From positions 1,178,001 through 1,242,000 of the forward strand of contig NZ_CP021377.1 in assembly GCF_002157895.1 (NCBI RefSeq): a DNA stretch of 64,000 nt, read 5' to 3'. Source of the stretch: Oceanisphaera profunda. Lineage in GTDB: Bacteria > Pseudomonadota > Gammaproteobacteria > Enterobacterales > Aeromonadaceae. Below are positions 30,472 through 61,295 of the stretch, piece after piece (positions within the stretch are counted from its first letter, which is position 1; each line of letters begins with the position of its first letter). The translations under genes were made by a program, and so were the position numbers. Below the pieces are notes generated by a model. It saw only the letters and a list, made by a program, of their open reading frames with translations. It was not told the origin of the DNA and did not search any database.

Positions 30472-30502
30472 CACTTAACTCCTGTCTTTAGCGCTTAATG
30501 TT

Positions 30503-45095: not shown

Positions 45096-45139
45096 CTTAT
45101 CAGCCTCTAATATGGCGGTAGGGAAAGAGCTGCGTATGA

Positions 45140-45925
45140 TTAAAACTTAATACCCAATCCCAGGTACGGTCCGCCCATGGTCATGTCCCATACGGTGCCA
45201 TCTTTTTCGTAGTCCCAATAGAGTTGGCGATAGCCGACTTTGGCGGTGAAATCTTTGGCAAACTCCCAGTTTGCACCGAGCATAAATTGATAAGTTAGAT
45301 TAGAGCCGCCGCCGCCAACATCTGCATAACCCAATAACGACCATTGTTCATTGAGCGGCTGTAATACTCGCACACCAATCACCGCATCCGTCCAACCATC
45401 AGAACCACTGGCACTTTTGCTACCACCAGGAAAGACAATGCCAGGTGTGGTGGTAATGGCCACATTGGCCTCGGTGTCTAACTTGGTGTAGCGCAGTGCC
45501 CAAATCATGTCGAGGGCCGTGCTGGTGTCCAGTACTCGATAAGCAACCGAACCCTGAGTGATAGATATTTCACTGGTCACATCTAGCGCACCGTTAACCG
45601 TTACCTGACCAAAAGGCCCAGTGACACTTTTTGCCTCTTTATCTGACAACTTAACGTAGATAGTTTCTAGGCCATAAGTCCAAGGCCCTTTACGGGCGGT
45701 AATTAAGCCCATAAAGGCCAAATCTAGGTCATCCACTATGTCACTGAAAGACGCATCTATATCACTGGTCACGCCGCGCACGCCTACTGTGCCGTCGATA
45801 CCGGCGGCGAACAAATAAGGGGTTACTTCAAATTGCCAGCTATCACTTTCAGCCGAGTAAGCTGCTTGGCTCGCGCCGTAGCTCAACAAGGCCAGTAACA
45901 TAGTCCATGGTTTTTTTATGTGCAT
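45140..45925 (-). CDS. Outer-membrane beta-barrel protein, unknown function
   Basis: A 261-residue protein starting MHIKKPWTMLLALLSYGASQA (GGAG 8 bases upstream of 45925); a longer frame to 45952 reads through the ribosome-binding site. The mature part alternates polar and hydrophobic residues in amphipathic strands (FEVTPYLFAAGIDGTVGV, WTYGLETIYVKL, VAYRVLDTSTALDMIWALRY) and ends in LGLGIKF with terminal Phe, as in small outer-membrane barrels. No named family is clear, though it resembles the porin-like proteins found near DUF1254 genes. It lies 44 bases upstream of the glycine-zipper gene. Confidence 0.78.
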   Translation of the reverse strand: MHIKKPWTMLLALLSYGASQAAYSAESDSWQFEVTPYLFAAGIDGTVGVRGVTSDIDASFSDIVDDLDLAFMGLITARKGPWTYGLETIYVKLSDKEAKSVTGPFGQVTVNGALDVTSEISITQGSVAYRVLDTSTALDMIWALRYTKLDTEANVAITTTPGIVFPGGSKSASGSDGWTDAVIGVRVLQPLNEQWSLLGYADVGGGGSNLTYQFMLGANWEFAKDFTAKVGYRQLYWDYEKDGTVWDMTMGGPYLGLGIKF

Positions 45926-46164
45926 ACCTGCATCTCCAACCCACTTAGGCATTTTTTACACTAAGGGCAGCCCCAGCGTTATGCTCAGCTGAGCACCCAC
46001 TAGGGCTGATTCGTTAATATGGCTTAGCTTGTGCTCGTGGCTTAATTTATTCGCCTGCACCACAGCGTCACTGCCAACACTCCGATTTTAACCATGTGAT
46101 AGGCAATACCCAGTACGCGGCGGTGACTTGCTACGCACTGGGTGATTGAGCATGTATCAGCAGA

Positions 46165-46761
46165 TTAAGATGCGGGGGTGACCTTGATAGCCACCGACTC
46201 TTGATAGACCGCATCCACTCGGTCACCCACTTTGATAGTGGACATATCGATGGACTCATCCACCGCCAGCTTAATGGTGTGCTCAGCACCTTGTAAGGTA
46301 ACCGTGCGGGCTGTCGCATCCATAGCCTGTACTACGCCTTCGGCCTCAACTGTTTTACGAATAGTTCCGCCGGGCTTTTGGCCAAGCGCGGCACGGCTAA
46401 GCGTGTCTGTTTCTACACGCTCACGCAGTTTATTCGCGGTATCCGCAGGGCTAAGCGCCAAGGCAACACCCACATTGTAAGTAGCTGTAACTCGGTCACC
46501 GACTTTTACTTGATCCAAATTACGAGCTTCTTCACCCACCGCCATCTGCGTCACCTCACCCTCTTCATTGCGCAGTGTGACCACACGATTATCTAAATCG
46601 ATAGCCTCAATGGTGGCAGTGGTCGTCATGTGCATACCCGCCATCACGGCTGGCTTTTCAGTGCCTTCATTAACACCGTCCATCGGTTGTGCAGCAAAAG
46701 CCGGCGCCGTTAACATGGCGCAAAGCAAACCTGCACTCCAACCTAGTTTTAAATTTTTCAT
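46165..46761 (-). CDS. Exported protein with two related beta domains
   Basis: A 198-residue protein with a signal peptide (MKNLKLGWSAGLLCAMLTAPAFA, cleaved before AQPM) and a good AAGGAG site. The mature protein has two copies of one motif: IEAIDLDNRVVTLRN..VKVGDRVTATY (about 51-97) and VQAMDATARTVTLQG..IKVGDRVDAVY (about 144-187), joined by a charged helical linker. The D/N-R-V-V-T-L...VGDRV pattern suggests a small OB-like or barrel fold. Not recognised by name; probably periplasmic. Confidence 0.75.
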   Translation of the reverse strand: MKNLKLGWSAGLLCAMLTAPAFAAQPMDGVNEGTEKPAVMAGMHMTTTATIEAIDLDNRVVTLRNEEGEVTQMAVGEEARNLDQVKVGDRVTATYNVGVALALSPADTANKLRERVETDTLSRAALGQKPGGTIRKTVEAEGVVQAMDATARTVTLQGAEHTIKLAVDESIDMSTIKVGDRVDAVYQESVAIKVTPAS

Positions 46762-46960
46762 TAACTGCTCTCCTTAGTGGTTTATTAAAAAATAACGCTT
46801 AACTTGTTATTGCTGTGATAACTCTAGTGCAATTTCTCGGGTTCGAGTACGCCTCTTCTAATCTTCTCTGCCCGCCCTAAGGCATTGTCTTTAAGGTAAA
46901 AAGACTGCATGGCGAGCACAGAGATCTAGCTTGGTCGAGCACAATTAAAACTGTACCAAC

Positions 46961-47983
46961 CTAATTTTTTTCAGCAGGAAAAATTTGGCGCCAGTCCTGC
47001 TCCATGCTGATCACATGCCAGCCGTATTGAGGTGCAGCATCAAGCGCCTGGTCTAACTTGCCAATGGCGGACACACGGTCGTACGCCCACTCACGCTTCG
47101 CATCATCGTGGTGCACTAAAATACCGAGTCGTGGCGTCGTATCTTCGCTGTTACGAGCAATAGTGGTGTACTCGAGCATCTGCATATCGCCATCGGAATT
47201 ACCCGCTGCGAAGATCGGCCGACGGCCAATGTGGCGATAGATGGCCACGGGCTTCTCTACATTGTCATTCATCTGGATCAAGTCGCCGGTCTTAACGATA
47301 GTCGGGATGCCGTCGCGCATCTCGTACGTCGCATGGGCGGTCGAGCCGACCACATTCTCGGGCGGAACTCCGTAGACCGATTCGGCAAATACGCGCATAA
47401 AGTCGATGCCGCCGCCTGAGACGATATAGACATCGAAATCGTTGGCGCGAAGGTAGTTCAGCAACTCAAGCATCGGCTGATAAGCCATCTGTGGGTAGGG
47501 CACATCCCGAGTTGGGTGTTTCGCACTCGCCAGCCAATCCATTACCGACGCATTGAACTGCGTCTCGGTCATGCCTACATGCGAGGCAAGGAGCAGTTTA
47601 ACCAAGCCTTCCTTGCCCGTCGCCATGACACCTTTAAGATCACCGGCAAGAGCGCTCTTATAAGGCTCCGTCGTCTGCCAATCTGGGTGGTCCGGCGCCA
47701 TGTCCTTCACGTTGTCTATCGCAAACTGGGCTTGGAAATAAACCGGTTGCTCGGCCCAGAGGGTGCCGTCGTTATCGAACGTCGCAATGCGATCGGGCAC
47801 TGGCACAAAATCCGCCGTACCCGGCTCAGTCACGCGCTGCACGAACGCCATGATGGCTGACTTGGTAGGATTACTATTCCACGACGGCAAAGGATCCGCC
47901 GGCGCTGGAGCTTGTGCCACCGCAAGGCTGGTGGTGGTGTACATCAGGCAGGCAATAAAAAATCGACTACTGAATTTTTGCAT
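46961..47983 (-). CDS. Exported HAD-superfamily phosphatase
   Basis: A 340-residue periplasmic HAD hydrolase with signal peptide (LAVA-QAPA). Motif I is FDNDGTLW (nucleophile Asp70, Asp72), motif II is IVSGGG, a conserved lysine precedes RHIGRRP, and motif IV is AAGNSDGDMQML. The cap is long and helical, as in SerB-like phosphatases. HAD proteins of this kind recur beside DUF1254 genes in other proteobacteria (from memory, to be checked). It lies 143 bases downstream of the six-gene DUF1254 array. Substrate unknown. Confidence 0.85.
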   Translation of the reverse strand: MQKFSSRFFIACLMYTTTSLAVAQAPAPADPLPSWNSNPTKSAIMAFVQRVTEPGTADFVPVPDRIATFDNDGTLWAEQPVYFQAQFAIDNVKDMAPDHPDWQTTEPYKSALAGDLKGVMATGKEGLVKLLLASHVGMTETQFNASVMDWLASAKHPTRDVPYPQMAYQPMLELLNYLRANDFDVYIVSGGGIDFMRVFAESVYGVPPENVVGSTAHATYEMRDGIPTIVKTGDLIQMNDNVEKPVAIYRHIGRRPIFAAGNSDGDMQMLEYTTIARNSEDTTPRLGILVHHDDAKREWAYDRVSAIGKLDQALDAAPQYGWHVISMEQDWRQIFPAEKN

Positions 47984-48126
47984 CAGGCTACATCCTTATG
48001 GGCGAGCTACTGCTCGGCACTTGATGATAGAGCTACGGCTCGGCTCTTAATGATAAGTAGGCCAACTACCAGACAGACCCGCTGCCTCATTGTTGGCCTA
48101 AACCTAATCTATCTCTCAAGTGTTAT

Positions 48127-49665
48127 TTACTTCACCTTTACCACTTTTGGCATCTTGTAAGTGCCATTGGTGAGCGGCGCATAAGGTCCGTAGTAGCGCG
48201 AAGTAAAGCGGAACCCTTCGGCAGGCGCGGGCAGCCAGTTCTTGGCTTGTTCTGGATCGGTGGGCTTATCGTGCTGCACATAGATCACTAGCTTGCCGTC
48301 TTTAGCCACTAAATCACCGGCATCCAACATGAAGCTGTTGACGGTGTAACGATTAATTTCATTGGCAACGAAATAGCCGTTCGCGTCATAGATAGGGATT
48401 GACCAAAACTGGGTGACCGGCGGCAGGTCGTCCATGTCAAAGGTCAGCGTGTATTTCTCCTTGCCACTGAACGGTTTGCCATCAGCATCCGTGAACAAGA
48501 AAGCACCGCCGTGTGAAACGTTCTTGTCCGGTGCACCCCAGGCTGCATCGGCAATGATGGCGCGATCCATCCAGCGGGTTTCAAAGCCACCGTCATTACG
48601 TACCACTCCCCAGCCGTTCATATCAATCATGTTCGTTTTCAGCGTTTTACGCACACTATCGAATCCGGCCTTGAATCCGGTCTCGAGAGCCGTTTTCTGC
48701 TCAGCCGTCAACTTGCTCCAGTCAAAGGTCAGACCCTTACCAATATTGAACACCTCAAGCTGCTTGAGCATTTCCGCCTCCATCATTGAATCTACAATGG
48801 GTGGCGTGGTCGGGTCATTCAAGATGACACTGAGCAGCGTGAAATATTGTTCAGCAGTCTGTTTATCAACCTGACCGAATTGATATTCAGGCAAGCCATT
48901 CGGGATAGGGAAATCACCCTTAATCACCTTTCTATCTGCTTGAGGGATACCCTTGTTACCATTGGCCAGCCAATCAGCTAAAGGCGTCATGGTCACTTGA
49001 TCCTGATATCCGTTAATGGTTTTGATTTCAGCATCGGTCCCTGTCATAACGGCCATCCGCGCCAGACCAAAAGCGGTCTGAGCCGGCCACTGAATGATGT
49101 CGGTGGTGGGGAAATCGGCCGGTATATTGCCGGTAAAGGCCGGCGGCACCAGAATGTATTTACGCGCTTTGGTGCCATTAAAAGGTGAGCCGACGATCAT
49201 CCGAAAAATACCGTACTGATCTTGGACCTGGACACTAAAGTAGCGATCTGTGATCTCGGGTACTTCAATAACCACAGGCCCCTCACGCAGATCAAGAAAA
49301 CCAGCGCCATAAAGAGTGGTCGCATTGGGCGTAACCACCGGATAATCGGGGGTGATCTGCTTGCGTACCCAAGCAAACTGGTTCAGACCAGCATAGACAT
49401 CATTGCCCTTAACGTCGTTTTGGGTGTAGGTCCAGCGCTGGCCGTAGTAAATCGCCTGCTGAAGTCCGTAAAGATAGGCACGCTCCGCAACGGCTTCCAG
49501 TGTTAGTGCGCCAGGATCGGTTTGTGCGGTTTGTGCCGATGCGTCGATGTTGATAGCTACGGGGTTGTTGCCCGCAGCCGATACCTCTTTAGCTGTTGCC
49601 GCCAATGGGGCGAGAGCCAGCGTACAGGCCAGTGCGATAACAGTGTGGGGAAAGAATATTTTCAT
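48127..49665 (-). CDS. DUF1254/DUF1214 exported protein 1 (subfamily B)
   Basis: A 512-residue exported protein with a signal peptide (LAATA-KEVSA). DUF1254 covers about 50-200 (RAYLYGLQQAIYYGQRW, VVTPNATTLYGAGFLDLREG, RYFSVQVQDQYGIFR), and DUF1214 covers about 390-512 (PPVTQFWSIPIYDANG, RYTVNSFMLDAG, NWLPAPAEGFRFTSRYYGPY). The N-terminal AYLYG start of the domain groups it with the genes at 54621 and 56131. No activity is established for the family. It is the last gene of the array, 45 bases below its neighbour. Confidence 0.88.
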   Translation of the reverse strand: MKIFFPHTVIALACTLALAPLAATAKEVSAAGNNPVAINIDASAQTAQTDPGALTLEAVAERAYLYGLQQAIYYGQRWTYTQNDVKGNDVYAGLNQFAWVRKQITPDYPVVTPNATTLYGAGFLDLREGPVVIEVPEITDRYFSVQVQDQYGIFRMIVGSPFNGTKARKYILVPPAFTGNIPADFPTTDIIQWPAQTAFGLARMAVMTGTDAEIKTINGYQDQVTMTPLADWLANGNKGIPQADRKVIKGDFPIPNGLPEYQFGQVDKQTAEQYFTLLSVILNDPTTPPIVDSMMEAEMLKQLEVFNIGKGLTFDWSKLTAEQKTALETGFKAGFDSVRKTLKTNMIDMNGWGVVRNDGGFETRWMDRAIIADAAWGAPDKNVSHGGAFLFTDADGKPFSGKEKYTLTFDMDDLPPVTQFWSIPIYDANGYFVANEINRYTVNSFMLDAGDLVAKDGKLVIYVQHDKPTDPEQAKNWLPAPAEGFRFTSRYYGPYAPLTNGTYKMPKVVKVK

Positions 49666-49710
49666 AGTTAATGACTCCTAGTTTCGAATATTGGTAAACA
49701 GATTGATGCG

Positions 49711-51255
49711 TTACTTAATCAGTTCGATCTCACCTGGTTGCCAGCTCTTATCAAACCACGGCTGCAGCGGGCTGTAGACGCGTAATATAGTGAACCAACC
49801 TCCGTCGGGCACGGTTTGCACCCAGTTCGATTTTTTACCCTCTGGCGCTGTCGGCCCAAAGTAAATATCTGTAGAACCATCCGCGTTCAGCTGGACTGCC
49901 CCGTTGGGGCTGCCGTCTTTCGGGAAGCCTGCTCCTGCGCCGATTGCTGGGTACGGATAGTCCGTTTGCAGCAAAGAGCGGGTCTGGTTGTCGTAGATGG
50001 TCATCGACCAGAAGTTCTGTTGCGGAATATTGGCCGGCAGGGTCAGTTTGTAGGTTTTGCTGCCGTCCAGTGCATGGCCCTCTTTATCTCGGGTGGCTGC
50101 CGCATAGACGGAACCCTCACCCACTTTGGGTGTGGCCATGGCCGGAGTAATACCGGTGGCAAAGTAGTGGAATGCGGTACGCGCATCCAGCACCCGTGCA
50201 CCGTCTAATAGAAATTCAGACCCACCAACAAAAGGCGTGTACCAAGCGGATTCTTTACCATAAAGATAAAACTCTTCGCCTCTAGGCGTGAGGGAAATGG
50301 TTCTCGCTGAGGCATTCCCTAACGCGGCCGCTTCGGTGAGAATTTTTTTCATCCGTGCATCTGGGTTGAAAGGTTTGCCCTTGATGATACCGATAGCGGC
50401 TATCTGACCGGTCAGCTCAGGGCCGAATGAGCCGGCAGGCTCGGCCTGCACGATTTCATTCAAATATTCATAGAACACATAAGTACTGGGTGGAATGGTA
50501 TTCAGCTGCACATAACTGCCGTTCTTGTTTTGCACGGTTGCGTGAGTCTTTCCTGCCTCGCTCAAGGGGTAAATACGTGCATATTTTTTAATGTTCTCAA
50601 GGGCCGGTTTTACGTCACCATCAACGGCAAAATTACGCCATGCGCCCCACAGACCATTGGTGGGTGATTTAACAACAAAATAGCCATCAGGCACTTCGCC
50701 TGTATAGTCGGGTGGCAGAAAGAGGTATTTTCCGCCCTCGCCCTTATCAGGTCCGGTAAAGCCAATATCGGTGACCCATCTAAACCAAGCGTCATCAACC
50801 GGCCCAAGCACCTTGGGTGGCACTTCCATCACTATCGGCCCCTTAGTCAAATCAAGAGAAAACCATGACTGGGGGGTAACGGTATTCGGGGTCAGATACA
50901 TACCCGTGGAGTCCATCATGGTTTCCATGGTCATGATGGTGTTATCTGGTACGCCAGCATCGCGCGGGCCTTTGCGCGCCGCGTAGATGCTTACCCCTGG
51001 CAGCGCATTCAAATAGACTTCAACCGCGCGGGAAAAATCTAAATGGTCCCAGATCTTATCTTGGGCTGCTTGACTCGGTATGCCCTTGGTAAAGTTCAGA
51101 GTGCCAAGGCGTGTTTCCACTTGCTCCGGCGTGGTGATATCCGATGGTATGGGGGTGGTCATTTTCATATTTGGCGACGGTTGAGCCCAAGCCTGAGACA
51201 AATAACAGGTCGCTATTGCACTGAATAAAATAAATTGGTACGACTTCGTTTTCAT
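49711..51255 (-). CDS. DUF1254/DUF1214 exported protein 2 (subfamily A)
   Basis: A 514-residue exported protein; the ATG at 51255 is chosen because AAGGA lies just before it and a TTG 6 bases upstream is poorer. Signal cleaved near AWA-QPSP. N-terminal RLGTLNFTKGIPS is a variant of the LGELKFFDGVPT segment found in the next two genes and not in the other three. DUF1254 core NTVTPQSWFSLDLTKGPIVMEVPP; DUF1214 core QQNFWSMTIYDNQTRSLLQTD and NWVQTVPDGGWFTILRVYSPL. It is clearly diverged from the two neighbours upstream, so it is an older member of the group. Confidence 0.88.
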   Translation of the reverse strand: MKTKSYQFILFSAIATCYLSQAWAQPSPNMKMTTPIPSDITTPEQVETRLGTLNFTKGIPSQAAQDKIWDHLDFSRAVEVYLNALPGVSIYAARKGPRDAGVPDNTIMTMETMMDSTGMYLTPNTVTPQSWFSLDLTKGPIVMEVPPKVLGPVDDAWFRWVTDIGFTGPDKGEGGKYLFLPPDYTGEVPDGYFVVKSPTNGLWGAWRNFAVDGDVKPALENIKKYARIYPLSEAGKTHATVQNKNGSYVQLNTIPPSTYVFYEYLNEIVQAEPAGSFGPELTGQIAAIGIIKGKPFNPDARMKKILTEAAALGNASARTISLTPRGEEFYLYGKESAWYTPFVGGSEFLLDGARVLDARTAFHYFATGITPAMATPKVGEGSVYAAATRDKEGHALDGSKTYKLTLPANIPQQNFWSMTIYDNQTRSLLQTDYPYPAIGAGAGFPKDGSPNGAVQLNADGSTDIYFGPTAPEGKKSNWVQTVPDGGWFTILRVYSPLQPWFDKSWQPGEIELIK

Positions 51256-51369
51256 GCGCAATCCTTGCTTTTTATGTGGTCTTGTCGCTCGAGATTTTTT
51301 GGCTGGTAATATATTAATTAACGGGCAACGCCTGAGCGCCGCCCGTCACAATCAGCCTATCAATTCGAG

Positions 51370-52869
51370 TTACTTAACCAGCTCAATCTCACTTGGGCGC
51401 CAGGTTTTGTTGATCCAAGGCTCCAGTGGGCCGTACATGCGCAGGATCACAAACCAGCTCTTGCCTGGCACTGTGGCTAGCCAGTTGTTCTCTTTGCCTG
51501 CGGGTGCCTTAGGTCCGAAATAGAGATCGTAAGAACCATCCGCATTCTTTTCGATACCTTTATCCTGACTGCCGACAGTCGGAAATGCTTGGCTAGTCTG
51601 CAGCATGGAGCGGGTTTGGGTGTCATAAATAGTGACCGCCCAAAAATCGTTTACTGGCACATTAGGTGGCAGATGTACCTTGTAGGTTTTAGCACCGTCG
51701 AATGCCTTTTTATCAGCATCGAGATTGGCTAGCGCATAATCCGAGCCCGCACCCACGTGGCTGGTAGCCATGGCTGGCGTCACACCACCGGCGTTAAAAT
51801 AGAACAGCACCCGCGCATCTAGGCCCATAGTGCTATCCGCCTCGAAGGAGGTGTTGTGGTTGGCAAAGGCCGTGGTCCAAGAGCTCTTGGTATCGGGATA
51901 GATAAATACGCCATCGATTCGTGGCTGATAAGTGATAGCGCGGGCGGTGGCGTTGCCGATAGTGCCCGCTTCAAGCAGTAACTTTTTCATGCGCGCATCG
52001 GGTGCGAATGGCTGGCCTTTGACTATGCCAATGGAGGCAAGATTACCGCGCACCTCAGGGTCGATGGCGTCAATAGGCTCGCGCTGAATCATGTCATTGA
52101 GGATTTCAAAATAACCGAGATCATTGGGGAACACAGTATTGAATGCCTTGCCAGACATATTAACGAATTCGGTAGCTGCCGGTTTGGCCGCATCTTTCAG
52201 CGGATATATTTTCAGCCCAGATTCTATGTTTTTCACTGCAGGATCTAAGCCATCAGCAATCGAGCCGCGCAGGAATAGGAAGTTACGGTTGGTCTTGGGC
52301 TTTAGCACAAAGTAGCCGTCCGGCACCTCGCCGGTGTAACCCGGTGGCAACACCAGATACTTACCGCCCTTGCCTTTGTCAGGCCCGGTTACGCCCATAT
52401 CGCCAACAAAACGCTGCCAGCCATCATCGAGAAAGCCCAGCATACCCGGTGGGATCTCGATCACAGTCGGCCCATCTTTAGCCAGATCGGTACCCGCATA
52501 GGCGTACAAGGTAGAGGTGTTGGCGGTAACTACTAAGCTTTGCGAGTCCATCAAGGCTCCAAACAAAGCTATTTTATTCGATGCGTCAGCACCGGCTCTT
52601 CCCAGCCCGTCAAGCACGCTCTGAATGGACACGCCGCCCATATTATCGAGATAAGCCGCTACGGCGCGCGAGCGATCCAGGTTGTCATAAAGGGTATCGA
52701 TGGTGGCGTCGGTGGGTACGCCATCAAAAAACTTCAATTCGCCAAGCGGCGTTGCAACGCTATCGGGTATTGAAATCGCTTGCAGCTCGGCCTTACTGAC
52801 TTGAGCAGAAGCTGATTGCGCCAGCAGCGCAATGACAGCAAAACACAGAGGGATAGGTCGTAATTTCAT
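51370..52869 (-). CDS. DUF1254/DUF1214 exported protein 3 (subfamily A)
   Basis: A 499-residue exported protein starting MKLRPIPLCFAVIALLAQSASA (AGGAG 9 bases before 52869). The N-terminal 60 or so residues are almost the same as those of the next gene (VSKAELQAISIPDSVATPLGELKFFDGVPT), including a run of more than 50 identical bases, and similarity is high to the end (SEIELVK). The middle has NTSTLYAYAGTDLAKDGP and GFLDDGWQRFVGDMGVTGPDKG. It differs from its twin in about 80-110 (SIQSVLDGLGRAGADASNK against SLYAMRKGNAGIGATSNT). Confidence 0.88.
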   Translation of the reverse strand: MKLRPIPLCFAVIALLAQSASAQVSKAELQAISIPDSVATPLGELKFFDGVPTDATIDTLYDNLDRSRAVAAYLDNMGGVSIQSVLDGLGRAGADASNKIALFGALMDSQSLVVTANTSTLYAYAGTDLAKDGPTVIEIPPGMLGFLDDGWQRFVGDMGVTGPDKGKGGKYLVLPPGYTGEVPDGYFVLKPKTNRNFLFLRGSIADGLDPAVKNIESGLKIYPLKDAAKPAATEFVNMSGKAFNTVFPNDLGYFEILNDMIQREPIDAIDPEVRGNLASIGIVKGQPFAPDARMKKLLLEAGTIGNATARAITYQPRIDGVFIYPDTKSSWTTAFANHNTSFEADSTMGLDARVLFYFNAGGVTPAMATSHVGAGSDYALANLDADKKAFDGAKTYKVHLPPNVPVNDFWAVTIYDTQTRSMLQTSQAFPTVGSQDKGIEKNADGSYDLYFGPKAPAGKENNWLATVPGKSWFVILRMYGPLEPWINKTWRPSEIELVK

Positions 52870-52974
52870 GTTCGGGCACTCCTGTACCAAAGAGGGTGTG
52901 AATATTATTTCTACTCACATTAATGCGTTTAAAAATCACGCTAATTGAGTTACAAAATACTTTTTACTCTTAGA

Positions 52975-54471
52975 TTACTTAACCGGTTCAATCTCACTCG
53001 GGCGCCAGCTTTTATCAATCCAAGACTCCAGCGGGCCGTACATACGCAAAATCGCAAACCAACTCTTACCCGGCACCGTCTCTAACCAGTTGCCTTCTTT
53101 TCCTGCGGGCGCCTTGGGTCCAAAATAGAGATCGTAAGAACCATCCGCATTCTTTTCTATGCCTTGGTCCTGACTACCGGCGGTCGGGAATTCTTGGCTG
53201 GTCTGTAATAACGAACGAGTCTGAGTGTCATAAATAGTGACCGCCCAAAAGTCGTTTACCGGTACATTCGGCGGTAAGTGCAGCTTGTAGGTTTTTGAAC
53301 CATCGAAGGCTTTCTTGTTGGAGTCTAGATAAGCAATGCCGTAATCGGAGCCCGCGCCGACATGCGTAGTCGCCATGGCAGGAGTGACGCCAGTGGCGTT
53401 GTAAAGAAACAAGGCCCGTGCATCTGGGCTCATAGCGCCATCAGTTTCGAACGAGGTGTTCTTACTGGCATAACCCATGGTCCAAGCACTGTGCGTGTCC
53501 GGATAAATTTCTACGCCATCGATGCGGGGCTGGTAGGTGATGGCACGGGCGGTGGCCGCACCTATGTCGGCCGCCTCAATCAACAGTTTTTGCATGCGAG
53601 CATCGGGTTTGAACGGCTGGCCTTTCTTAATACCAATGGCGGCCAAGGTGCCGCGCATCTCCGGCCCAATCGCATCGATCGGCTCTTCCTGCACTACTTG
53701 ATTGAGGCCTTCGTAAAAGCTTAAACCTCTGGTGACCAGCGTGTTGTAACTGGTGCCAGAGAAATCGACAAACTTAGTGGTTGGCGGATTGTTAGCTTTA
53801 GACAATGGATAAATTTTGAGCCCAGATTTAATGTTCTCAACGGCGGGCGCTAGCCCTTTAGCGATCGAGCCCCGCAGGAACATCAGGTTATGATAAGTCG
53901 GCATCTTGACCACAAAATAGCCCTCGGGCACGGTGCCCGTGTGACCAGGTGGCAACAGCAGATATTTCCCGCCCTTGCCTTTGTCTGGCCCCGGCACACC
54001 CATGTTCTCTATATAGCGAAACCAAGCATCATCCAAAAAGCCCAACATGCCCGCCGGCAGCTCGACCACCAGTGCCCCGTCGGCTTGCAGATCAAGGTAA
54101 GACAGCGCATACAAAGTGGAGGTGTTGCCGGTTAGATACAGAGAATCCGGCTTGAGCAGTTGCTCGGTGATGCTGACGGTATTCGACGTCGCGCCTATAC
54201 CGGCATTGCCCTTGCGCATGGCATATAAGGATGCCGCGCCTTGGTGGGCGAGATACACATCAACGGCGCGCATACGGTCGAGGTTGTCATAAAGGGTATT
54301 AATAGTGGTGTCGGTGGGCACGCCGTCGAAAAACTTCAATTCGCCGATCGGTGTTGCAACGCTATCGGGTATTGAAATCGCTTGCAGCTCGGCCTTACTG
54401 ACTTGAGCCGAAGCTGCTTGCGCAAATAGCGCCATAACAGCAAAACACAAAGGAATAGGACGTAATTTCAT
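52975..54471 (-). CDS. DUF1254/DUF1214 exported protein 4 (subfamily A)
   Basis: A 498-residue exported protein (MKLRPIPLCFAVMALFAQAASA signal) and the close twin of the gene at 51370. DUF1254 core NTSTLYALSYLDLQADGALVVELPAG; DUF1214 core PVNDFWAVTIYDTQTRSLLQTS, NADGSYDLYFGPKAPAGKEG and GKSWFAILRMYGPLESW. High DNA identity in the 5' part and around the C-terminal 120 codons indicates recent duplication or gene conversion. It is preceded by a hairpin at 54565-54602. Confidence 0.88.
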   Translation of the reverse strand: MKLRPIPLCFAVMALFAQAASAQVSKAELQAISIPDSVATPIGELKFFDGVPTDTTINTLYDNLDRMRAVDVYLAHQGAASLYAMRKGNAGIGATSNTVSITEQLLKPDSLYLTGNTSTLYALSYLDLQADGALVVELPAGMLGFLDDAWFRYIENMGVPGPDKGKGGKYLLLPPGHTGTVPEGYFVVKMPTYHNLMFLRGSIAKGLAPAVENIKSGLKIYPLSKANNPPTTKFVDFSGTSYNTLVTRGLSFYEGLNQVVQEEPIDAIGPEMRGTLAAIGIKKGQPFKPDARMQKLLIEAADIGAATARAITYQPRIDGVEIYPDTHSAWTMGYASKNTSFETDGAMSPDARALFLYNATGVTPAMATTHVGAGSDYGIAYLDSNKKAFDGSKTYKLHLPPNVPVNDFWAVTIYDTQTRSLLQTSQEFPTAGSQDQGIEKNADGSYDLYFGPKAPAGKEGNWLETVPGKSWFAILRMYGPLESWIDKSWRPSEIEPVK

Positions 54472-54564
54472 AATTTGTTGATCCTGTGCAAAAAGGTAGT
54501 GTGTGCTCTTTTTATAGCTGTGCCTTGCTGTGCCGGTGTTAATCTGCTGCTTTAATATACTGAT

Positions 54565-54602
54565 GGCATTGCTCTCGTTGTTTCATCAACGGGAGCAATG
54601 CC
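54565..54602 (-). other. 16-bp hairpin between two DUF1254 genes
   Basis: GGCATTGCTCTCGTTG (54565-54580) pairs with CAACGGGAGCAATGCC (54587-54602), with one G-T type mismatch and a 6-base loop. It follows the stop of the 54621 gene by 19 bases on the minus strand. There is no T-run, so it may be an RNA-stabilising or factor-dependent end that splits the array into two transcripts. Confidence 0.65.
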
Positions 54603-54620
54603 ATCCTTACCGGCTCTGAT

Positions 54621-56024
54621 TTACTTAACCTTAAGTAGTTTTGGTTGGGTCCAAGAGCCATCCAGCGCGGCTTGTGCCGGCCAGTACAAACGCATATAAG
54701 TAGCGAACGGCCCTTTAGGCGCGGGCAGCCAGTTAGATTCTTTGTCTGGGCCGGGTGATTCGTTTTGGATATAGAGCGTTAAGCCGCCATCTGCGTCTTT
54801 CTTCATCTGTGGCAGCATGGGCGAATTAATGAGATAGCGGTTGATCGGATTAGCCACCAGCAGGCTGGAGGGTAATTCGTACATGGTCAGTGACCAAAAG
54901 GCATTAACTGGCGGATACTCATTCGGTGCAAAGCGCAGTGTGTAGCGATTAGCTCCGGTTAGCGGCTGGCCTGCGCTGTCCATCCGATAAACCGGATACA
55001 TGGCTTCTTCTTTGGCGTTGCCATAAATACCAATAGTGCCCAGCCAACGGTTGAGGTAATTGTCGCCGAGAAACTCGCGGCTGCCGAAGACGTCACCGGA
55101 AGTGATCTTGCCTTCGGTCAGCTCTTTGACGCCACCCGCAAACTCTTGCAGGGCATCGGCGCGCCCCTGTTCGATGGCTGTCTTGATTTCAGGTGAGAGC
55201 GCGGCTTGGTCAAAGGTCTTGCCGCCCTCGATACCAATTTTGGCAAAGCGATCCCTTAGCGCCACTTCGCTCGATACCGCAGGGCTGTAGTTCAGCACGA
55301 AGTTCATGATATTGAAGAACTCGAGCGACGTTTTCTGCTCTTCTTTGGTGATAGGTTTAATGAAGTCTATGGTCGGTGCTGCAGGTGGCGGCGCTGTACC
55401 AAGAAACGCGGACAGCGGCTGCACTTGGTATTGAGCTTGGATGTTCTTAACCTTGTCCATGTCGCCAGCATTGAATAACTGGGTACGAAACACGGCGAGA
55501 TCGAAGTCAGTATCAGAGAGGTACACCTTATCAATGCCCTTGGGCGTTTCGCCCTTCCAGCTTGGCCCCGCCACCATGAAATTGCCCGCATCGTTGCCCG
55601 TGGTTCTTGAGCCTGCGTAACCGACGATATAAGTGTAAGCGTCGAAGATCTGGATAGAGTAGTAGCGCTCTTTTTCAATTTTTGGCACCGAAATCACCAC
55701 CGGCTCGGCGCGCAAATCCAGACCCGCCCAAGAATACGGCGTGTCCGAATTAGGTGTTTGTATGGCTTTGTCGTCCGGTGTATAAACTTTGGCCAGATTC
55801 TTGATCTGGTTCCAGGGCGCCATGTATTCAGGATCATTCTTATTCACGAAATACGAATACTGGACGCGGTAATTGTCCACCATAGGGTAACCGTAAATGT
55901 AGGCTTCCTTAGCGATGGCGCGGGCTTCCTCTGAGGTCATATCAGAGGTAGCGGCGGTCGTGGTTAGCGGTAAACCGATCACCAAGCCCATCAGTAGGCT
56001 CATTAATTTTTTTTGATAAAGCAT
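54621..56024 (-). CDS. DUF1254/DUF1214 exported protein 5 (subfamily B)
   Basis: A 467-residue exported protein; ATG at 56024 (AAGGAA upstream) opens a signal MLYQKKLMSLLMGLVIGLPL cleaved near TTA-ATSD. DUF1254 starts ARAIAKEAYIYGYPMVDNYRVQ; then TPNSDTPYSWAGLDLRAEPVV and RYYSIQIFDAYTYIVGYAGS. DUF1214 contains YPPVNAFWSLTMYELPSSLL, NRYLINSPMLP and NWLPAPKGPFATYMRLYWP. It is closest to the next gene upstream (56131-57558), with the two probably an older tandem pair. Confidence 0.88.
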   Translation of the reverse strand: MLYQKKLMSLLMGLVIGLPLTTTAATSDMTSEEARAIAKEAYIYGYPMVDNYRVQYSYFVNKNDPEYMAPWNQIKNLAKVYTPDDKAIQTPNSDTPYSWAGLDLRAEPVVISVPKIEKERYYSIQIFDAYTYIVGYAGSRTTGNDAGNFMVAGPSWKGETPKGIDKVYLSDTDFDLAVFRTQLFNAGDMDKVKNIQAQYQVQPLSAFLGTAPPPAAPTIDFIKPITKEEQKTSLEFFNIMNFVLNYSPAVSSEVALRDRFAKIGIEGGKTFDQAALSPEIKTAIEQGRADALQEFAGGVKELTEGKITSGDVFGSREFLGDNYLNRWLGTIGIYGNAKEEAMYPVYRMDSAGQPLTGANRYTLRFAPNEYPPVNAFWSLTMYELPSSLLVANPINRYLINSPMLPQMKKDADGGLTLYIQNESPGPDKESNWLPAPKGPFATYMRLYWPAQAALDGSWTQPKLLKVK

Positions 56025-56130
56025 GACGCATTTCCTTATGCACTTAAATGTAAATGCTACGCGGCACACCCATTAGGATCAGGAATGACTATGCCGCTGT
56101 AGTTTTATGTTGCTGATCAATGAGGCCGAA

Positions 56131-57558
56131 CTACTCCTTTACCATCACTATGCCAGGCATCTGCCACGTCCCTTTGCCAACCGGTAACACAGACAATGAC
56201 TCACTAGCGGGTTGTGGCCAGTACAGTCGCATTACCAGATAAGCGGTGTCATTAGGTGCTGGTAGCCAGTTAGCTTCTTTATCTTTACCGGGCGAGTCTT
56301 TCTGGATGTAAATAGTCACAGCGCCGTTGGCGTCTTTCTTCATCTCAGACACCATGGCGGTGTTGATCAAATAGCGATCGATGGGGTTTTTGATCATTAA
56401 CTGCGACTTGCCGTCGTACATAGTCACGGACCAAAAGGCATTGACTGGAGGCATCTGGTCTTTAGTGAAAGTGATGCTGTAGTTGTGCTTACTGGTATCA
56501 ATAGTTTGACCATTAGCATCTAGGCGGCCGAACAGGTAAACCGCTTCATCGGCATCATTACCATAAATACCCGCCTTGGCGGCAGCAGCACGCATCAACC
56601 AGTCACCATTATAATGCGCCCTATCACCGGGCAAGGAGCCGAGCTGCCAGCCGTTAACATCGGTGAGGCCCGAGGCAAGATAGGTGTCGATCTTAGTGTC
56701 ACCGGCTTTCATCGCCTCTAGCATGGCTTGTTGGTGTTCGGGTGACAGAGATTTTAGATCGAAGGTCTTGCCAGGACCCACGCCAATTTGTTCCAGCTTG
56801 GCGCGTATGTCCTTGTCTTCGTCAGCTTGTGGAATGTATTCGAGCGCGGCCCCAAGATAGGTCCAAAAGTTGCCTTTTATGCCAGCCGTTGTCGCGGGCA
56901 GAAAGTTAGGGTTAGTCGCAGCAGCAGGAGCTGGTTTGCCAAGGAATGTCGACAGCGGCTCTGTTTTGTACTGACCCTGAATTTTTTCCACATTGGGCAT
57001 GTCCGCAGGATCCAGTAACTGGGTACGAAATGCCGCTAGGCTGAAGGGTGTGAGCGAGTGAAATAATCCATCTATGCCCGCCGGTTTTTCGCCCTGCCAA
57101 TCAGGTCCCGCCACCAAGTAGCTGCCGCCCTTACCGCCAGTGGCACGGCTACCCAAATAACCGTAGTTGTAGGTATGTCCATCGTTGAGCATCACAGAAT
57201 AGTAGCGATCGGTAACGGTGGGGATAGTGATGACCATGGGTTCGGCACGCAGATCCAACCAAACCAAGGAATACGGCGTGTCGCTGTTGGCTGTCACTAC
57301 TGCCGTGTCTTTGTAGGTAAAAACTCGAGGCTCGTTCTTCACCTGATTAAAGGGTGCCTTGAACTGACTCGACTTAGGATCTACCGCGTACTCATTCATG
57401 ATGGCGTAGTTCATCACCAGCGGCAGGCCGTAAATAAAGCCTTCTTCAGCGATGGCTTTAACTTGTTCGGTGGTGAGCTTATCTGCAGGTGCCGCGGTTG
57501 CTGTAGCGCTAACCATAACGCCAAAGGCGGCGGTGGCTAATGTCATTCTAATATTCAT
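56131..57558 (-). CDS. DUF1254/DUF1214 exported protein 6 (subfamily B)
   Basis: A 475-residue exported protein, the first gene of the array. Of two adjacent ATG codons (57561 and 57558), the second gives better spacing to GGAG. Signal cleaved near TATA-APAD. DUF1254: EEGFIYGLPLVMNYAIMNEY, TANSDTPYSLVWLDLRAEPMV and RYYSVMLNDGHTYNYGYLGS. DUF1214: MPPVNAFWSVTMYDGKSQLM, NPIDRYLINTAMV and NWLPAPNDTAYLVMRLYWPQP. A perfect inverted repeat at 57652-57671 lies upstream. Confidence 0.88.
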   Translation of the reverse strand: MNIRMTLATAAFGVMVSATATAAPADKLTTEQVKAIAEEGFIYGLPLVMNYAIMNEYAVDPKSSQFKAPFNQVKNEPRVFTYKDTAVVTANSDTPYSLVWLDLRAEPMVITIPTVTDRYYSVMLNDGHTYNYGYLGSRATGGKGGSYLVAGPDWQGEKPAGIDGLFHSLTPFSLAAFRTQLLDPADMPNVEKIQGQYKTEPLSTFLGKPAPAAATNPNFLPATTAGIKGNFWTYLGAALEYIPQADEDKDIRAKLEQIGVGPGKTFDLKSLSPEHQQAMLEAMKAGDTKIDTYLASGLTDVNGWQLGSLPGDRAHYNGDWLMRAAAAKAGIYGNDADEAVYLFGRLDANGQTIDTSKHNYSITFTKDQMPPVNAFWSVTMYDGKSQLMIKNPIDRYLINTAMVSEMKKDANGAVTIYIQKDSPGKDKEANWLPAPNDTAYLVMRLYWPQPASESLSVLPVGKGTWQMPGIVMVKE

Positions 57559-57651
57559 CATAGCTCCATAAAAAAGGGGATTTCACCGACTGAACCGGTG
57601 TCATACGGACGGATAACGTTTAAACAAAGTGCCTGTTTAGTGTTACGTATG

Positions 57652-57671
57652 TATGTACCTCCTTGTACATA
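57652..57671. promoter_or_regulatory. Operator-like palindrome upstream of the DUF1254 array
   Basis: TATGTAC-CTCCTT-GTACATA: a perfect 7-bp inverted repeat with a 6-base spacer, about 95 bases upstream of the first DUF1254 gene and about 90 bases after the DUF4239 gene. The symmetry and spacing fit a dimeric repressor site. No regulator gene is nearby. Confidence 0.45.
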
Positions 57672-57761
57672 TAACCCCCTTCATTGTTAGCTCGCAGTGT
57701 TTAGCTGCTGAGTATTTAGCTGCTAAATTTTGAGCTAACAATAAAGTCTCAAACTAAAACC

Positions 57762-58547
57762 TTAAGGAGCCGCATCAATGGTGCCCATAATGGTTTGTAC
57801 ATCCACCATCGCCTGTTGACTGACGGTAATAAAGCCACGTTGCGGTCGATCAAGGTCCACCACCAGCGCGATCAACACCGCAAACGCTATGTTCAACGGC
57901 AGTACCGCGACCAGCCTGCGCTTGCCATAAAAACCAAGCTGCAGCCCTAACATCACCATGGAAAGCAGCGTGATCACCAGTAGCCCGTACCAGACATTTT
58001 CTGGGATCTGACTGTGCACGGCCGCCACTTTTCTTTGCTCGCCTTGGCTAATCACTTCTATGATGGATTGCACCACCATAGCCGTAATATCGTCAGGCTT
58101 GTTTTCAGCGGCGGCAGTGGCGTGAACCCACAACAATTGATAAATTTCATGAGACTGCGACAACGCAGTTTGCAGATCGCGATCTTGAATAACTTGCAGA
58201 CGAACTTGGATGTACCTGCGCAATTGGCGTTTCATCTCTAGCTTTTGCGGCGTGGCGACTAAGTCTGCGAGCAGATATGCGCTTTGCACCGCCGCCGCTT
58301 CGGTCACCACGTTCTGGTTGCGGGTTTGAAACTGAGACACAGTAATGGAGAAAATGAGCGCGAGGATAAACGCCAGCATGCTAAGTAAACCGGCGACCAT
58401 CGCACTAATCGAGTCCGGCGTTTCTTTACTTAGTCGAGCACGACGCCGACCAATCAAATAACCTGCTTCGCATGCTATCAAGGCCAGTACCACAGTACCC
58501 AAAAAGATGCCGGGTATAGACGCCGAGGTTATCCATCCGGTGATCAT
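57762..58547 (-). CDS. DUF4239 membrane protein
   Basis: A 261-residue inner-membrane protein of the DUF4239 (bestrophin-like) family. Helices: about 10-32 (IPGIFLGTVVLALIACEAGYLI), 48-68 (AMVAGLLSMLAFILALIFSI), 188-208 (YGLLVITLLSMVMLGLQLG) and 215-232. Between them is a helical, charged segment with QFQTRNQNVVTEAAAVQSAYLLADL and RRYIQVRL. AGG-rich GGAGAAGGG precedes the start. A channel role has been suggested for distant relatives; here the partner genes are the DUF1254 array and an outer-membrane protein. Confidence 0.82.
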   Translation of the reverse strand: MITGWITSASIPGIFLGTVVLALIACEAGYLIGRRRARLSKETPDSISAMVAGLLSMLAFILALIFSITVSQFQTRNQNVVTEAAAVQSAYLLADLVATPQKLEMKRQLRRYIQVRLQVIQDRDLQTALSQSHEIYQLLWVHATAAAENKPDDITAMVVQSIIEVISQGEQRKVAAVHSQIPENVWYGLLVITLLSMVMLGLQLGFYGKRRLVAVLPLNIAFAVLIALVVDLDRPQRGFITVSQQAMVDVQTIMGTIDAAP

Positions 58548-58588
58548 TGCCCTTCTCCCGCCACAGACCCGTTAATTAAGCGCTAGCT

Positions 58589-59431
58589 CTAGCTCTTATT
58601 CGGATACAACAGCGTAACGGTGAAGCGCAATCCCCACTCCGCTGCATTGTCTGGCGCTTCTAGGTAATAGCGAGCACCGCCTTGAAAGCTGACCATTTGC
58701 GGGCCAATTTTAGTGACTTTGCTGTAGGCAAGGTTTAGCGGCACTGTCCACTGATCGTCTTCCCAGTTATAGGTAGACTCCAGTGCAGCATTGATGGTGC
58801 GCCCTTGACCCAGGCCTTTGGCCAAAAATGGCTGCAAATAAGTGGCATTAATATCATTGCGATTGCTGTCACCGGCAAATGACCAAATATGATTGGCGAG
58901 CCCACCATAGGTCCAGCCGTTCGCGGTTTGTTTAAGCACTACCGCAGTTGGGCCACCGCCCCACTTTTCTCCGCCCAGCAGATCATCGGTCGCCGTTGGA
59001 ATAAGCAAAGCCGGGCCCGCACCCCAAGTCCAGCCGCTGGCAGTTAACGCCTTGGGCGAAAAAAACAAGCTCTGAGTGACATCACCGAGACCAAATTGAT
59101 TGCCTGCCCCGGGATAGATGTCTTCTTGAAAAGCAATGGGCAGTATGGTGCGCGAAATCATATTCCAGTCATCACTAATCGAGACAGGAATAACAGGCTG
59201 CACATTGAGGGTAAACTTGTAGCCTTTATCGAGCGCGCCTATGCCATCGTCGTAGTTCAACTGCATAGGTACACTAATGAGGCTAGCTATAGGGTTGGCT
59301 AATTGTTTGGCCAGTTCATCGGCAGAGCCTTGGGCGTAGGCAACTGAACAGCTGGCGCTGAATAGTGAGGTGAAAATGCTGAGTGTGTAGACATGGCGTA
59401 AACGCTGGCTTTTTTTCAATGATGAATGCAT
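58589..59431 (-). CDS. Outer-membrane transporter-like protein, MetA-pathway phenol type
   Basis: A 280-residue outer-membrane beta-barrel. A long signal (RHVYTLSIFTSLFSASCSVAYA) precedes QGSADELAKQLANPIASLISVP. The mature sequence has the typical features of the Phenol_MetA_deg family (PMQLNYDDGIG, GLGDVTQSLFFSP, WGAGPALLIPTATDDLLG, GGLANHIWSFAGD and W.L.FTVTLLYP). The start at 59431 has AGAGGG upstream. It is the first gene of the minus-strand block and lies 41 bases above the DUF4239 gene. The name of the family does not prove phenol transport. Confidence 0.82.
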   Translation of the reverse strand: MHSSLKKSQRLRHVYTLSIFTSLFSASCSVAYAQGSADELAKQLANPIASLISVPMQLNYDDGIGALDKGYKFTLNVQPVIPVSISDDWNMISRTILPIAFQEDIYPGAGNQFGLGDVTQSLFFSPKALTASGWTWGAGPALLIPTATDDLLGGEKWGGGPTAVVLKQTANGWTYGGLANHIWSFAGDSNRNDINATYLQPFLAKGLGQGRTINAALESTYNWEDDQWTVPLNLAYSKVTKIGPQMVSFQGGARYYLEAPDNAAEWGLRFTVTLLYPNKS

Positions 59432-59582
59432 CGTTCCCTCTCTTAATTTGTTAATGGATGTCCTTCTCCGTTCATCAAGCTTAATCGCTTTCTCTCTGAT
59501 TGCGAAAGTATTTTTATCTTTTTGCTAAATTAATTTTTTACTAATGTAAGGACTTGAAATATATAGGCACCCAGCCAGATTA

Positions 59583-59647
59583 GCTTAATTGGCTTAATTG
59601 GCTTAATTGGCTTAATTGGCTTAATTGGCTTAATTGGCTTAATTGGC
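59583..59647. repeat. Tandem nonamer array, about 7 copies of GCTTAATTG
   Basis: Seven full copies of the 9-base unit GCTTAATTG plus two bases, uninterrupted, in the 469-base gap upstream of the DEAD-box helicase gene. The rest of that gap is AT-rich without an obvious gene. TTAATT is self-complementary, so each unit carries a small palindrome. Confidence 0.95.
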
Positions 59648-59900
59648 AAGCGTGATCTAATTGCAATACACCCGTCATTTAAAGCTTAAATATCGGAGTT
59701 AGATAGCTGACGCAGAAATAAACGCTACCGTTACTCTCTCTGGCCGCCCTGTTCGCACTAAAATTTGCTGTTATTGATAATACGAACGTTAAGCTGCACA
59801 AAATTCCGTCAAAATTGTAATCAAACCTCTCTTATCTCGGCAAAATACTGTATTATCTGGCCTCGTTTTTTGACTGTAGCTACTCTACAGAGGATCTCTT

Positions 59901-61295
59901 ATGCAATTTTCATCTTTAGATTTAGCCCCCGATCTGCAACGCGCTCTGGTTGCCTGTGGCTACAGTGCTATGACACCCGTACAAGAGCAGGCCATAGTGC
60001 CGGCGCGTCGGGGTAAAGACTTACAAGTGACCGCGCAAACCGGTACCGGTAAAACCGCCGCCTTTGCTATTCCCGTATTGCAGCGCATGCTGGATAAGCC
60101 CAAAGACACGGTCGCCTATCGCCCACGCACACTTATTTTAACGCCGACTCGTGAATTGGCCGAGCAGCTTGGCGACTCTATTAGTGCCTATGCCCAGTTT
60201 TTGCCAATCAGTGTGACGGCACTTTACGGTGGCGTAAAAATGGGTGGCCAAGCGAATAAGTTAAAAGCCGGCGTTGATATCGTAATAAGCACCCCAGGGC
60301 GTTTGTTAGAGCATATGACGCTCGGCAATCTTGCCTTAAGTGATGTGGAATTTGTGGTGCTCGATGAAGCGGACCGTATGTTAGATATGGGCTTTATCAA
60401 TGACGTGCTGAAATTGATGCAACTGACTGCCAAAAATCGTCAAACCTTATTGTTTTCGGCCACCACTTCTCCGGCGGTAAATGAGCTGTCTCATAAAATT
60501 TTGCATGATCATCAGCAAATTCGTGTGACTAAAATCAACAGTACCGCTGAGACAGTGACCCACACTCTGTATCCGGTAGAAGAAAGCCGTAAGATTGAGC
60601 TGTTTGAAGCGCTATTGGCCGAGCATAACTGGTTTCAGGTCTTGGTATTTACCAGCACCAAAGAACAAGCAGATCGTTTATTAGAAGGTCTGAAGAAGAG
60701 CAAGGTAGAAGCCGCCGTGTGTCATGGCGATAAGAGCCAAGGCTCTCGCCGCCGTGCCATTGCCGACTTTAAAGCCGCTAAAATACAAGTGTTGATTGCC
60801 ACCGAAGTGGCCGCTCGTGGCTTGGATATTCAAGGCTTGGATTATGTGGTGAACTTTAACCTGCCATATTTAGCTGAAGACTACGTACACCGCATTGGTC
60901 GTACCGGTCGTGCTGGCGCCACCGGTACTGCAATCTCGTTTGTGAGCCGTGAAGAAGAGCAATCATTAGAGCGCATTCAAAAGCTGATTGGTGGCGAGAT
61001 CCAACGCATCATCAAACCCGGTTTTGAAGTGACCAGCCGCGCCTCTTTGCTGAAGAGCTTGTCACGCAAGGTGATCAGTGGCCGCTCTAACCGCGCCAGT
61101 GAAACCACCATTGAGCTGGTTAACTCCGGCGACAGCCAGCCTAAAGGCAAGCCGCGCCGCGCCCGCCCAAGTGGTGAAACTGAGCACAAAGTAGCAGCTA
61201 AGCCGGTGCATTATAAAAAGAACCAAAAGCCTCAAGAAGCGGGCCCCAAGAAGAAGAAATTACGCGGTAAGCGTGCACAGCAGCATTCTCGTTAA
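59901..61295 (+). CDS. rhlE: DEAD-box ATP-dependent RNA helicase, RhlE-like
   Basis: A 464-residue RNA helicase. Motifs in order: Q motif GYSAMTPVQEQAI, I AQTGTGKT, Ia PTRELAEQ, Ib TPGRL, II DEAD, III SAT, IV VLVFTSTK, V ATEVAARGLDI and VI HRIGRTGRAG. The C-terminal about 100 residues are basic and low in complexity (KPRRARPSGE..KKKKLRGKRAQQHSR), as in RhlE- and SrmB-type proteins, where they bind RNA. GAGGATCTCTT precedes the start. A strong bidirectional terminator follows. Confidence 0.92.
   Translation: MQFSSLDLAPDLQRALVACGYSAMTPVQEQAIVPARRGKDLQVTAQTGTGKTAAFAIPVLQRMLDKPKDTVAYRPRTLILTPTRELAEQLGDSISAYAQFLPISVTALYGGVKMGGQANKLKAGVDIVISTPGRLLEHMTLGNLALSDVEFVVLDEADRMLDMGFINDVLKLMQLTAKNRQTLLFSATTSPAVNELSHKILHDHQQIRVTKINSTAETVTHTLYPVEESRKIELFEALLAEHNWFQVLVFTSTKEQADRLLEGLKKSKVEAAVCHGDKSQGSRRRAIADFKAAKIQVLIATEVAARGLDIQGLDYVVNFNLPYLAEDYVHRIGRTGRAGATGTAISFVSREEEQSLERIQKLIGGEIQRIIKPGFEVTSRASLLKSLSRKVISGRSNRASETTIELVNSGDSQPKGKPRRARPSGETEHKVAAKPVHYKKNQKPQEAGPKKKKLRGKRAQQHSR

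Follow-up and report, generated by a model that had tools for sequence, protein, structure and literature searches.

The 64,000-nucleotide stretch of the Oceanisphaera profunda genome analyzed here (the window; contig NZ_CP021377.1, positions 1,178,001 to 1,242,000 of the forward strand) carries an array of six adjoining open reading frames (ORFs) on the minus strand that encode proteins of the DUF1254/DUF1214 family. The ORFs lie where a first-pass annotation of the same DNA had located them, from 48127 to 57561, the high end being 57561 and not 57558. In the order of transcription the genes are B1 (56131-57561), B2 (54621-56069), A1 (52975-54471), A2 (51370-52890), A3 (49711-51261) and B3 (48127-49665). 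In profile searches, PF06863 (DUF1254) scored 88 to 144 bits in all six proteins, with a gathering cut-off of 22.2, and PF06742 (DUF1214) scored 101 to 124 bits, with a gathering cut-off of 25. Both domains therefore exceed the Pfam gathering score in 6/6 proteins and all six belong to the family, confirming the earlier claim of six consecutive family genes on one strand. The two subfamilies described in that annotation are also recovered, since identities are 47 to 71% within A (71% between A1 and A2), 28 to 44% within B and only 21 to 25% between A and B. None of the six proteins has a cysteine past residue 35; their signal sequences were read by eye and with a simple AxA scan. A search of the whole genome returned these six family members and no others, and because no members were found elsewhere, the clustering of the six is not due to chance.

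Lineages of the six genes and class sets at other loci

Family genes were compared across 79 loci, which are what remained of the best 80 of at least 80 matches to an alignment of A1, A2 and A3. Many of the contigs were short, and owing to the A-alignment query, B classes are visible only as neighbours of A genes. A quick tree of 174 family members was built, containing 168 locus genes (400-720 amino acids (aa), more than 200 bits) out of 186 family ORFs; fragments and weak DUF1214-only relatives were dropped before the tree and the class count. The quick tree and the B tree gave long-branch warnings; A1/A2 and B were rebuilt by a careful method, while A3 was placed by the quick tree only. The six window genes occupy six separate places among the 174. 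A1 is nearest to a Marinobacter gene (84-85% identity), A2 to a Motilimonas gene (74-76%), B2 to a gene of Colwellia echini and B1 to Planctomycetota genes, while B3 branches deeply within B as a separate lineage, nearest to genes from Alphaproteobacteria and a Verrucomicrobia metagenome-assembled genome (MAG). A3 sits on a long branch and its placement is unsure.

These positions bear directly on the origin of the array, which the first-pass annotation had described as an amplification. If one or two genes had recently been amplified in tandem in this strain, for dosage or substrate range, the consecutive arrangement of the six members and the high identity of A1 and A2 would be in line with it. 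However, A1 and A2 are each nearer to the Marinobacter and the Motilimonas gene, respectively, than to each other, and approximately unbiased (AU) tests on the careful trees reject a clade of A1 and A2 (p-AU 8.9e-6), one of B1 and B2 (p-AU 7e-49) and one of all three B genes (p-AU 0.002). Moreover, the nearest neighbour in the tree comes from the same locus for just 2 of the 148 genes at multi-copy loci, the six of the window included. Recent duplication was consequently rejected for A1+A2 and the B genes by trees and AU tests, with A3 placed by the quick tree only, and amplification is a very improbable origin of the array. The idea of an amplified gene gives way to six separate lineages, carried on an island for which no counterpart was found elsewhere in the genus; judged from their sequences, the six look like long-separated sister proteins kept together and not like fresh copies of one gene.

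Six ortholog classes were drawn around the window genes after the tree had been seen. In the quick tree five of them have a support of 98 to 100 in the Shimodaira-Hasegawa-like approximate likelihood ratio test (SH-aLRT), while A3 is weak at 81; the careful trees recover A1, A2, B1, B2 and B3. At least two class members are held by 20 loci, and a repeated class was observed in none of these (0/20). When classes were shuffled, a mean of 6.9 loci had a repeated class, and 0 of 5000 shuffles were as low as the observed value. The trio A1+A2+B3 occurs in six loci (L011, L012, L014, L016, L017 and L026), the hosts being four Alphaproteobacteria, one Marinobacter and one Verrucomicrobia MAG. These adjacent, non-repeating class sets are the strongest sign that the paralogs may do different jobs together. 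The window holds the largest set found, with one member of each of the six classes.

Sets of family genes are common beyond these 20 loci. At least two family ORFs were found in 60 of the 79 loci, and five loci have five; both counts include fragments and weak DUF1214-only matches and leave out eight short loci. The locus of Marinobacter sp. 2_MG-2023 (L009) resembles the array in holding relatives of A1 (85%), B3 (81%) and B2 (63%), which belong to the same tree classes, within 6.4 kb, but the other island genes have no tblastn match in the 21 kb of this locus. A Martelella plasmid locus (NZ_CP054862, L100) likewise has two adjoining DUF1254 genes, with a gene for an AraC regulator before them. 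Unlike in the array, these two are followed by genes for DUF2721, two hypothetical proteins and a biotin/lipoyl-binding protein, and genes for a sugar-type hydrolase (alpha-glucosidase/alpha-galactosidase) and an ABC transporter lie upstream.

A PF06863 member was found in 0/22 genomes of the same genus and in 7/74 other genomes of the same family, most of these carriers having pairs. Counting the O. profunda genome itself, the family is present in 24/369 genomes of the class sample and 51/269 genomes of the phylum sample. Between six and twelve matches are present in each of five genomes (G262, G554, G592, G693 and G696), where they are distributed among several contigs or lie at a distance from one another, with pairs among them; among the matches listed, the longest run in the other sampled genomes is three. 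G696, of the same class, has a 7.0 Mb genome with twelve DUF1254 matches scattered across many contigs. At the 79 loci, runs of two to five genes are ordinary for the family, and the six in a row, the largest set here, are an extreme case of a widespread arrangement.

Content and boundaries of the island

The array is part of an island of about 17.6 kb (42174-59757) with 13 genes, all on the minus strand and all read as encoding envelope proteins, their exported or membrane nature having been judged by eye. Downstream of B3 lie genes for an exported HAD-type phosphatase (46961-47983; PF12710), an exported 198-aa protein with two CusF-like stretches (46165-46761; PF11604, 31.8 bits against a cut-off of 27), the outer-membrane barrel-like protein OMP270 (45140-45952), a small exported glycine-zipper protein (44646-45095; glycine-zipper matches below cut-off) and a PlpD-like patatin phospholipase fused to an Omp85 barrel (42277-44649; PF01734 and PF01103). 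Upstream of B1 are genes for a DUF4239 or bestrophin-like membrane protein (57762-58547; PF14023, now named Bestrophin-like, 64.9 bits) and a second outer-membrane barrel-like protein, OMB280 (58589-59431), which has no Pfam family. Both OMP270 and OMB280 have relatives at other DUF1254 loci, and neither reaches a Pfam cut-off. As OMP270 has no Pfam family and its NCBIfam barrel match is below cut-off (24.8 against 105 bits), the label "barrel" comes mostly from reading the sequence. With this reservation for the barrels, the phosphatase, the DUF4239 protein and the patatin-Omp85 lipase reported earlier as flanking genes were found by Pfam. The CusF-like protein, CusF being copper-binding, represents a possible metal link of the island, and the gap between B3 and the phosphatase gene holds two copies of a 26-base unit (48004-48055).

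The only match of seven proteins to a defence library was that of the PlpD-like protein to a phospholipase-effector patatin domain; because of its fusion to an Omp85 barrel, a role as a defence effector was set aside. Gaps between neighbouring island genes range from -4 to 212 bp on one strand throughout, and scans for promoters and terminators gave a signal no higher than in shuffled sequences. We infer that the island genes may act together or as one transcript.

The boundaries were drawn from two genomes of the genus in which the insertion site is comparable. In the closest genome (G014, 89-96% identity at longer matches), similarity to the window stops at 42173 and resumes at 59758, the two parts being separated by 1.7 kb of different DNA, while in G017 the two flanks (to 42153 and from 59789) are 54 bp apart, so that 42174-59757 represents an insertion of about 17.6 kb. 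It lies between the gene of an RlmA-like methyltransferase and a gene that we take, from its motifs, to encode a DEAD-box helicase; five other genomes (L094-L098) keep the helicase gene without the left gene beside it. Among the matches listed in the 22 same-genus genomes there is no DNA match to 44500-59757, while most of these genomes do match the helicase side to the right. For the part from 42174 to 44500, absence was tested in four genomes; short DNA matches of 68 to 73% to the island's PlpD gene lie at other places in G015 and G017.

Base composition was rejected as a sign of transfer, since the island (GC 0.520; GC at third codon positions, GC3, 0.564) equals the 17 other genes of the window (0.521 and 0.565), which suggests that either the donor was compositionally similar or the transfer is old. 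On these sequence comparisons horizontal acquisition is the simplest account of the island; a less simple history would have it gained earlier and then lost from G014. No integrase or recombinase was recognized among the 13 island genes by ORF and Pfam reading, no transfer RNA gene was found in 38000-64000 (a search for direct repeats common to both island edges was not made), no inverted repeats were found within 42000-42500 or within 59400-59950, and there was no Rfam match in 41000-61000. Just inside the right edge (59579-59647) lies a nine-base tandem repeat, ATTGGCTTA, with 7.7 copies and 98% matches. At the same intergenic site in the sister genome G014 (L091, between 6610 and 8323), the other DNA has ends that by eye resemble inverted repeats, suggesting that the site may be an insertion hot spot. 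Elsewhere in the window, a stretch of about 290 bases (about 30500-30790) has dozens of diverged copies (about 64-86% identity) in G014 and represents a repeat family of the genus.

Recurrent neighbours, fold and conserved residues

The island gene most often present at other DUF1254 loci is that of OMB280, with relatives at 18/79 loci by clustering and 19/79 by tblastn, followed by that of OMP270 (11/79 and 13/79, respectively). An AraC-type regulator is found at 18/79 loci, its representative having PF12625 and HTH_18. A PF00884 sulfatase cluster is present at 8/79 loci (12/79 with a wider sulfatase profile), DUF2092 at 6/79 and a PF01663 phosphodiesterase at 5/79. Profile scans covered 124 of 187 operon-like neighbours, 56 of 72 neighbours of HAD relatives and 57 of 84 neighbours of OMB280 relatives, mostly shorter proteins being left out. 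Among the 124, HTH_18 (9), Phenol_MetA_deg barrels (5), Arabinose_bd (5), sulfatases (4) and phosphodiesterases (4) were commonest. The first-pass annotation had proposed an exported system with several related components; its distinct components are favoured by the absence of repeated classes and by the recurrence of OMB280 relatives, while the amplification it invoked is not.

Viewed from the neighbours, 3/29 loci of OMB280 relatives have a DUF1254 gene no more than about 1.5 kb away, one of them being a weak edge match, as do 3/30 loci of a 785-aa sulfatase; 2 of these 30 sulfatase loci have an OMP270-like barrel. We read 3/30 as an enrichment because by our own estimate, made without matched control loci, a DUF1254 gene near a random gene is rare. 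HAD relatives occur at three DUF1254 loci (L034, L066 and L079) and also in G262, where two paired DUF1254 genes are about 3 kb away; among 56 scanned neighbours of HAD relatives there were 11 sulfatases and five FGE-type (sulfatase-modifying) enzymes. The host genome itself has four PF00884 genes (frames of 619-696 aa) and two PF03781 genes.

A1 matches the Protein Data Bank (PDB) entry of VPA0735 of Vibrio parahaemolyticus with an E value of 2e-70, and the best PDB match of B1 is VPA0106 of the same species (5e-39), which B3 matches less strongly (6e-19). The two proteins modelled, A1 (predicted local distance difference test, pLDDT, 93) and B1 (pLDDT 89), both have the family fold. VPA0735 (PDB 2p3y, 3vb9) shares the fold and the full length of the A1 model, with Z 49.0 for 3vb9, a root-mean-square deviation (rmsd) of 2.0 and 30% identity over 455 residues. 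The B1 model aligns with VPA0106 (PDB 3u07) at Z 35.3, rmsd 5.0 and 29% identity over 395 residues and with 3vb9 at Z 34.8, the two being tied as its closest solved structures. Giant-virus proteins named DUF1254 or DUF1214 (Satyrvirus, Harvfovirus) also match the B1 model in the fold search.

R200, Y395 and W409 (A1 numbering) do not vary among the 174 sequences, and where a residue is present identity is 98.8% or higher at T114, N116, Y121, Y414, N461, W462, R476 and Y478. The Asp columns D148, D383, D415 and D443 are 93 to 98% conserved. Conservation stays below 90% in every Glu, Lys, His and Cys column, the best Glu, Lys and His columns being at 83, 89 and 52%, respectively. With its Arg, Tyr, Asn and Trp residues, the conserved set would be appropriate to a site that binds an anionic organic ligand.

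Possible roles of the array

We tentatively favour a reading in which the envelope-only cassette equips the periplasm with a route for capturing and processing anionic esters of sulfate or phosphate, which would probably be amphiphilic or lipid-like. The barrels would admit such an ester to the periplasm, where the DUF1254/DUF1214 proteins may bind and perhaps convert it through their conserved Arg/Tyr/Asn/Trp residues. Each class could have its own ligand or step, or the classes could be partner subunits around a core of A1, A2 and B3, and we infer that several non-interchangeable subunits are present in this periplasmic system. The HAD phosphatase and the PlpD lipase would cleave esters, and the bestrophin-like protein might pass the anion across the inner membrane. 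A stronger version, which we regard as possible but doubtful, is that the paralogs are obligate partners, not interchangeable with one another, in a heteromeric periplasmic machine, with A1+A2+B3 as a core set that would have been inherited and transferred between phyla and to which B1, B2 and A3 would have been added.

Scavenging of sulfur or phosphorus would agree with the links to sulfatases and phosphatases as well as with the strong up-regulation under sulfur depletion of the Chlamydomonas ortholog of a Malassezia PF06742 gene, as stated in PMC4634964, beyond which no further literature on this ortholog was found. Plasmid pANL of Synechococcus elongatus PCC 7942 carries a lone DUF1254 gene (L101:5275-6654). 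Many sulfur-related genes are encoded on this plasmid according to PMC8049743, and sulfur-regulated srp genes are located there as well. A table in PMC13125312 gives a value of -3.40 for the pANL gene anL05 (COG5361) when a sulfated polysaccharide pathway is expressed heterologously. The accessible portions of this literature gave no measurement of the pANL DUF1254 gene under sulfur starvation, and its sulfur link was not retained.

Several observations weigh against the anionic-ester pathway. No sulfatase is encoded among the 13 island genes, the 785-aa sulfatase has no counterpart in the host genome, and an FGE profile matches at just 1/79 loci. Part of the sulfatase count carries less weight because sulfatases abound in planctomycete genomes, and sulfatases (2) and alkyl-sulfatase domains (2) come behind amidohydrolases (4), the commonest group among the 57 scanned neighbours of OMB280 relatives. 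While the family members elsewhere are largely paired or in sets and not single and scattered, most of the flanking genes named in the earlier annotation rarely or never accompany them: by tblastn, PlpD and HAD relatives are found at 3/79 DUF1254 loci each, and the DUF4239 and CusF-like proteins have no counterpart at any of the 79. From the opposite side, 0/29 fetched loci of HAD relatives have a DUF1254 neighbour, and the HAD gene was rejected as a general neighbour of the family. Outside the family, fold matches are weak, the best having Z 5.7 (RetS sensor domain) and carbohydrate-binding modules about 5; on the predicted models, such matches probably represent a common arrangement only. 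The conserved residues D148, D383, D415 and D443 leave catalysis possible. Expression of relatives is mixed and mostly points in directions other than sulfur: a family gene responds to iron and Fur in Caulobacter, another to NnrR in Bradyrhizobium, and the Listeria DUF1254 gene lmo1241 (log2 fold change 2.36) is among the genes responding to the bacteriocin garvicin KS (PMC12791056).

The lmo1241 response, together with the envelope reading of 13/13 island genes and the presence of PlpD relatives at three loci, would be consistent with an envelope-lipid or stress cassette, in which the PlpD protein, the glycine-zipper protein, the barrels and the DUF1254 proteins remodel or protect the outer membrane. 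We consider this unlikely, as the PlpD, glycine-zipper and DUF4239 proteins are rare or absent at other DUF1254 loci, and the sulfatase and AraC neighbours point toward nutrient use. It is similarly improbable that the site is a loose collection point at which family genes piled up by repeated transfer without acting jointly. Although the same site took up other DNA in G014, with ends resembling inverted repeats by eye, and the nearest relatives of the six genes come from different organisms, the same classes adjoin, without repetition, in unrelated genomes, which is not what chance accumulation would give.

A polysaccharide-use system, with the DUF1254/DUF1214 proteins as secreted glycoside hydrolases or carbohydrate-binding proteins, was also considered. 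A glycosyl hydrolase was predicted by homology modelling for a fungal DUF1214 protein in PMC4634964. This protein, encoded by the Malassezia PF06742 gene, resembles those of the array in being a DUF1214 member that was judged horizontally acquired and likely secreted, but it is present in one or two copies in a eukaryote and its activity is a prediction. The weak structural likeness of the A1 and B1 models to carbohydrate-binding modules and beta-galactosidase side domains (beta-sandwich domains, Z 4-5), the OprB porins among the scanned operon-like neighbours (3/124) and the sugar-type hydrolase and ABC-transporter genes upstream at the Martelella plasmid locus point the same way. The four Asp columns at 93 to 98% would be the candidates for a catalytic carboxylate pair. 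However, the best non-family Z score is in the range of unrelated models, no Glu column exceeds 83% conservation and no glycoside hydrolase family is among the 25 commonest of 127 neighbour families, making this role quite unlikely.

Neither multi-gene arrays nor a tested function for the family were found in the accessible parts of the full-text literature, subscription journals being mostly outside its coverage (PMC10734457, PMC2744874, PMC3751524, PMC6710368, PMC6299218, PMC10686091, PMC13125312, PMC7426719, PMC8049743, PMC12791056, PMC4701432, PMC4634964). The family is common and has solved structures, yet a tested function is absent from the literature found. That its paralogs occur in sets of distinct classes, accompanied by an outer-membrane barrel without a name and in some cases with sulfatases or phosphodiesterases close by, makes a domain of unknown function testable: one can ask which of the classes bind to one another, and whether they handle a sulfate or phosphate ester and, if so, which one.

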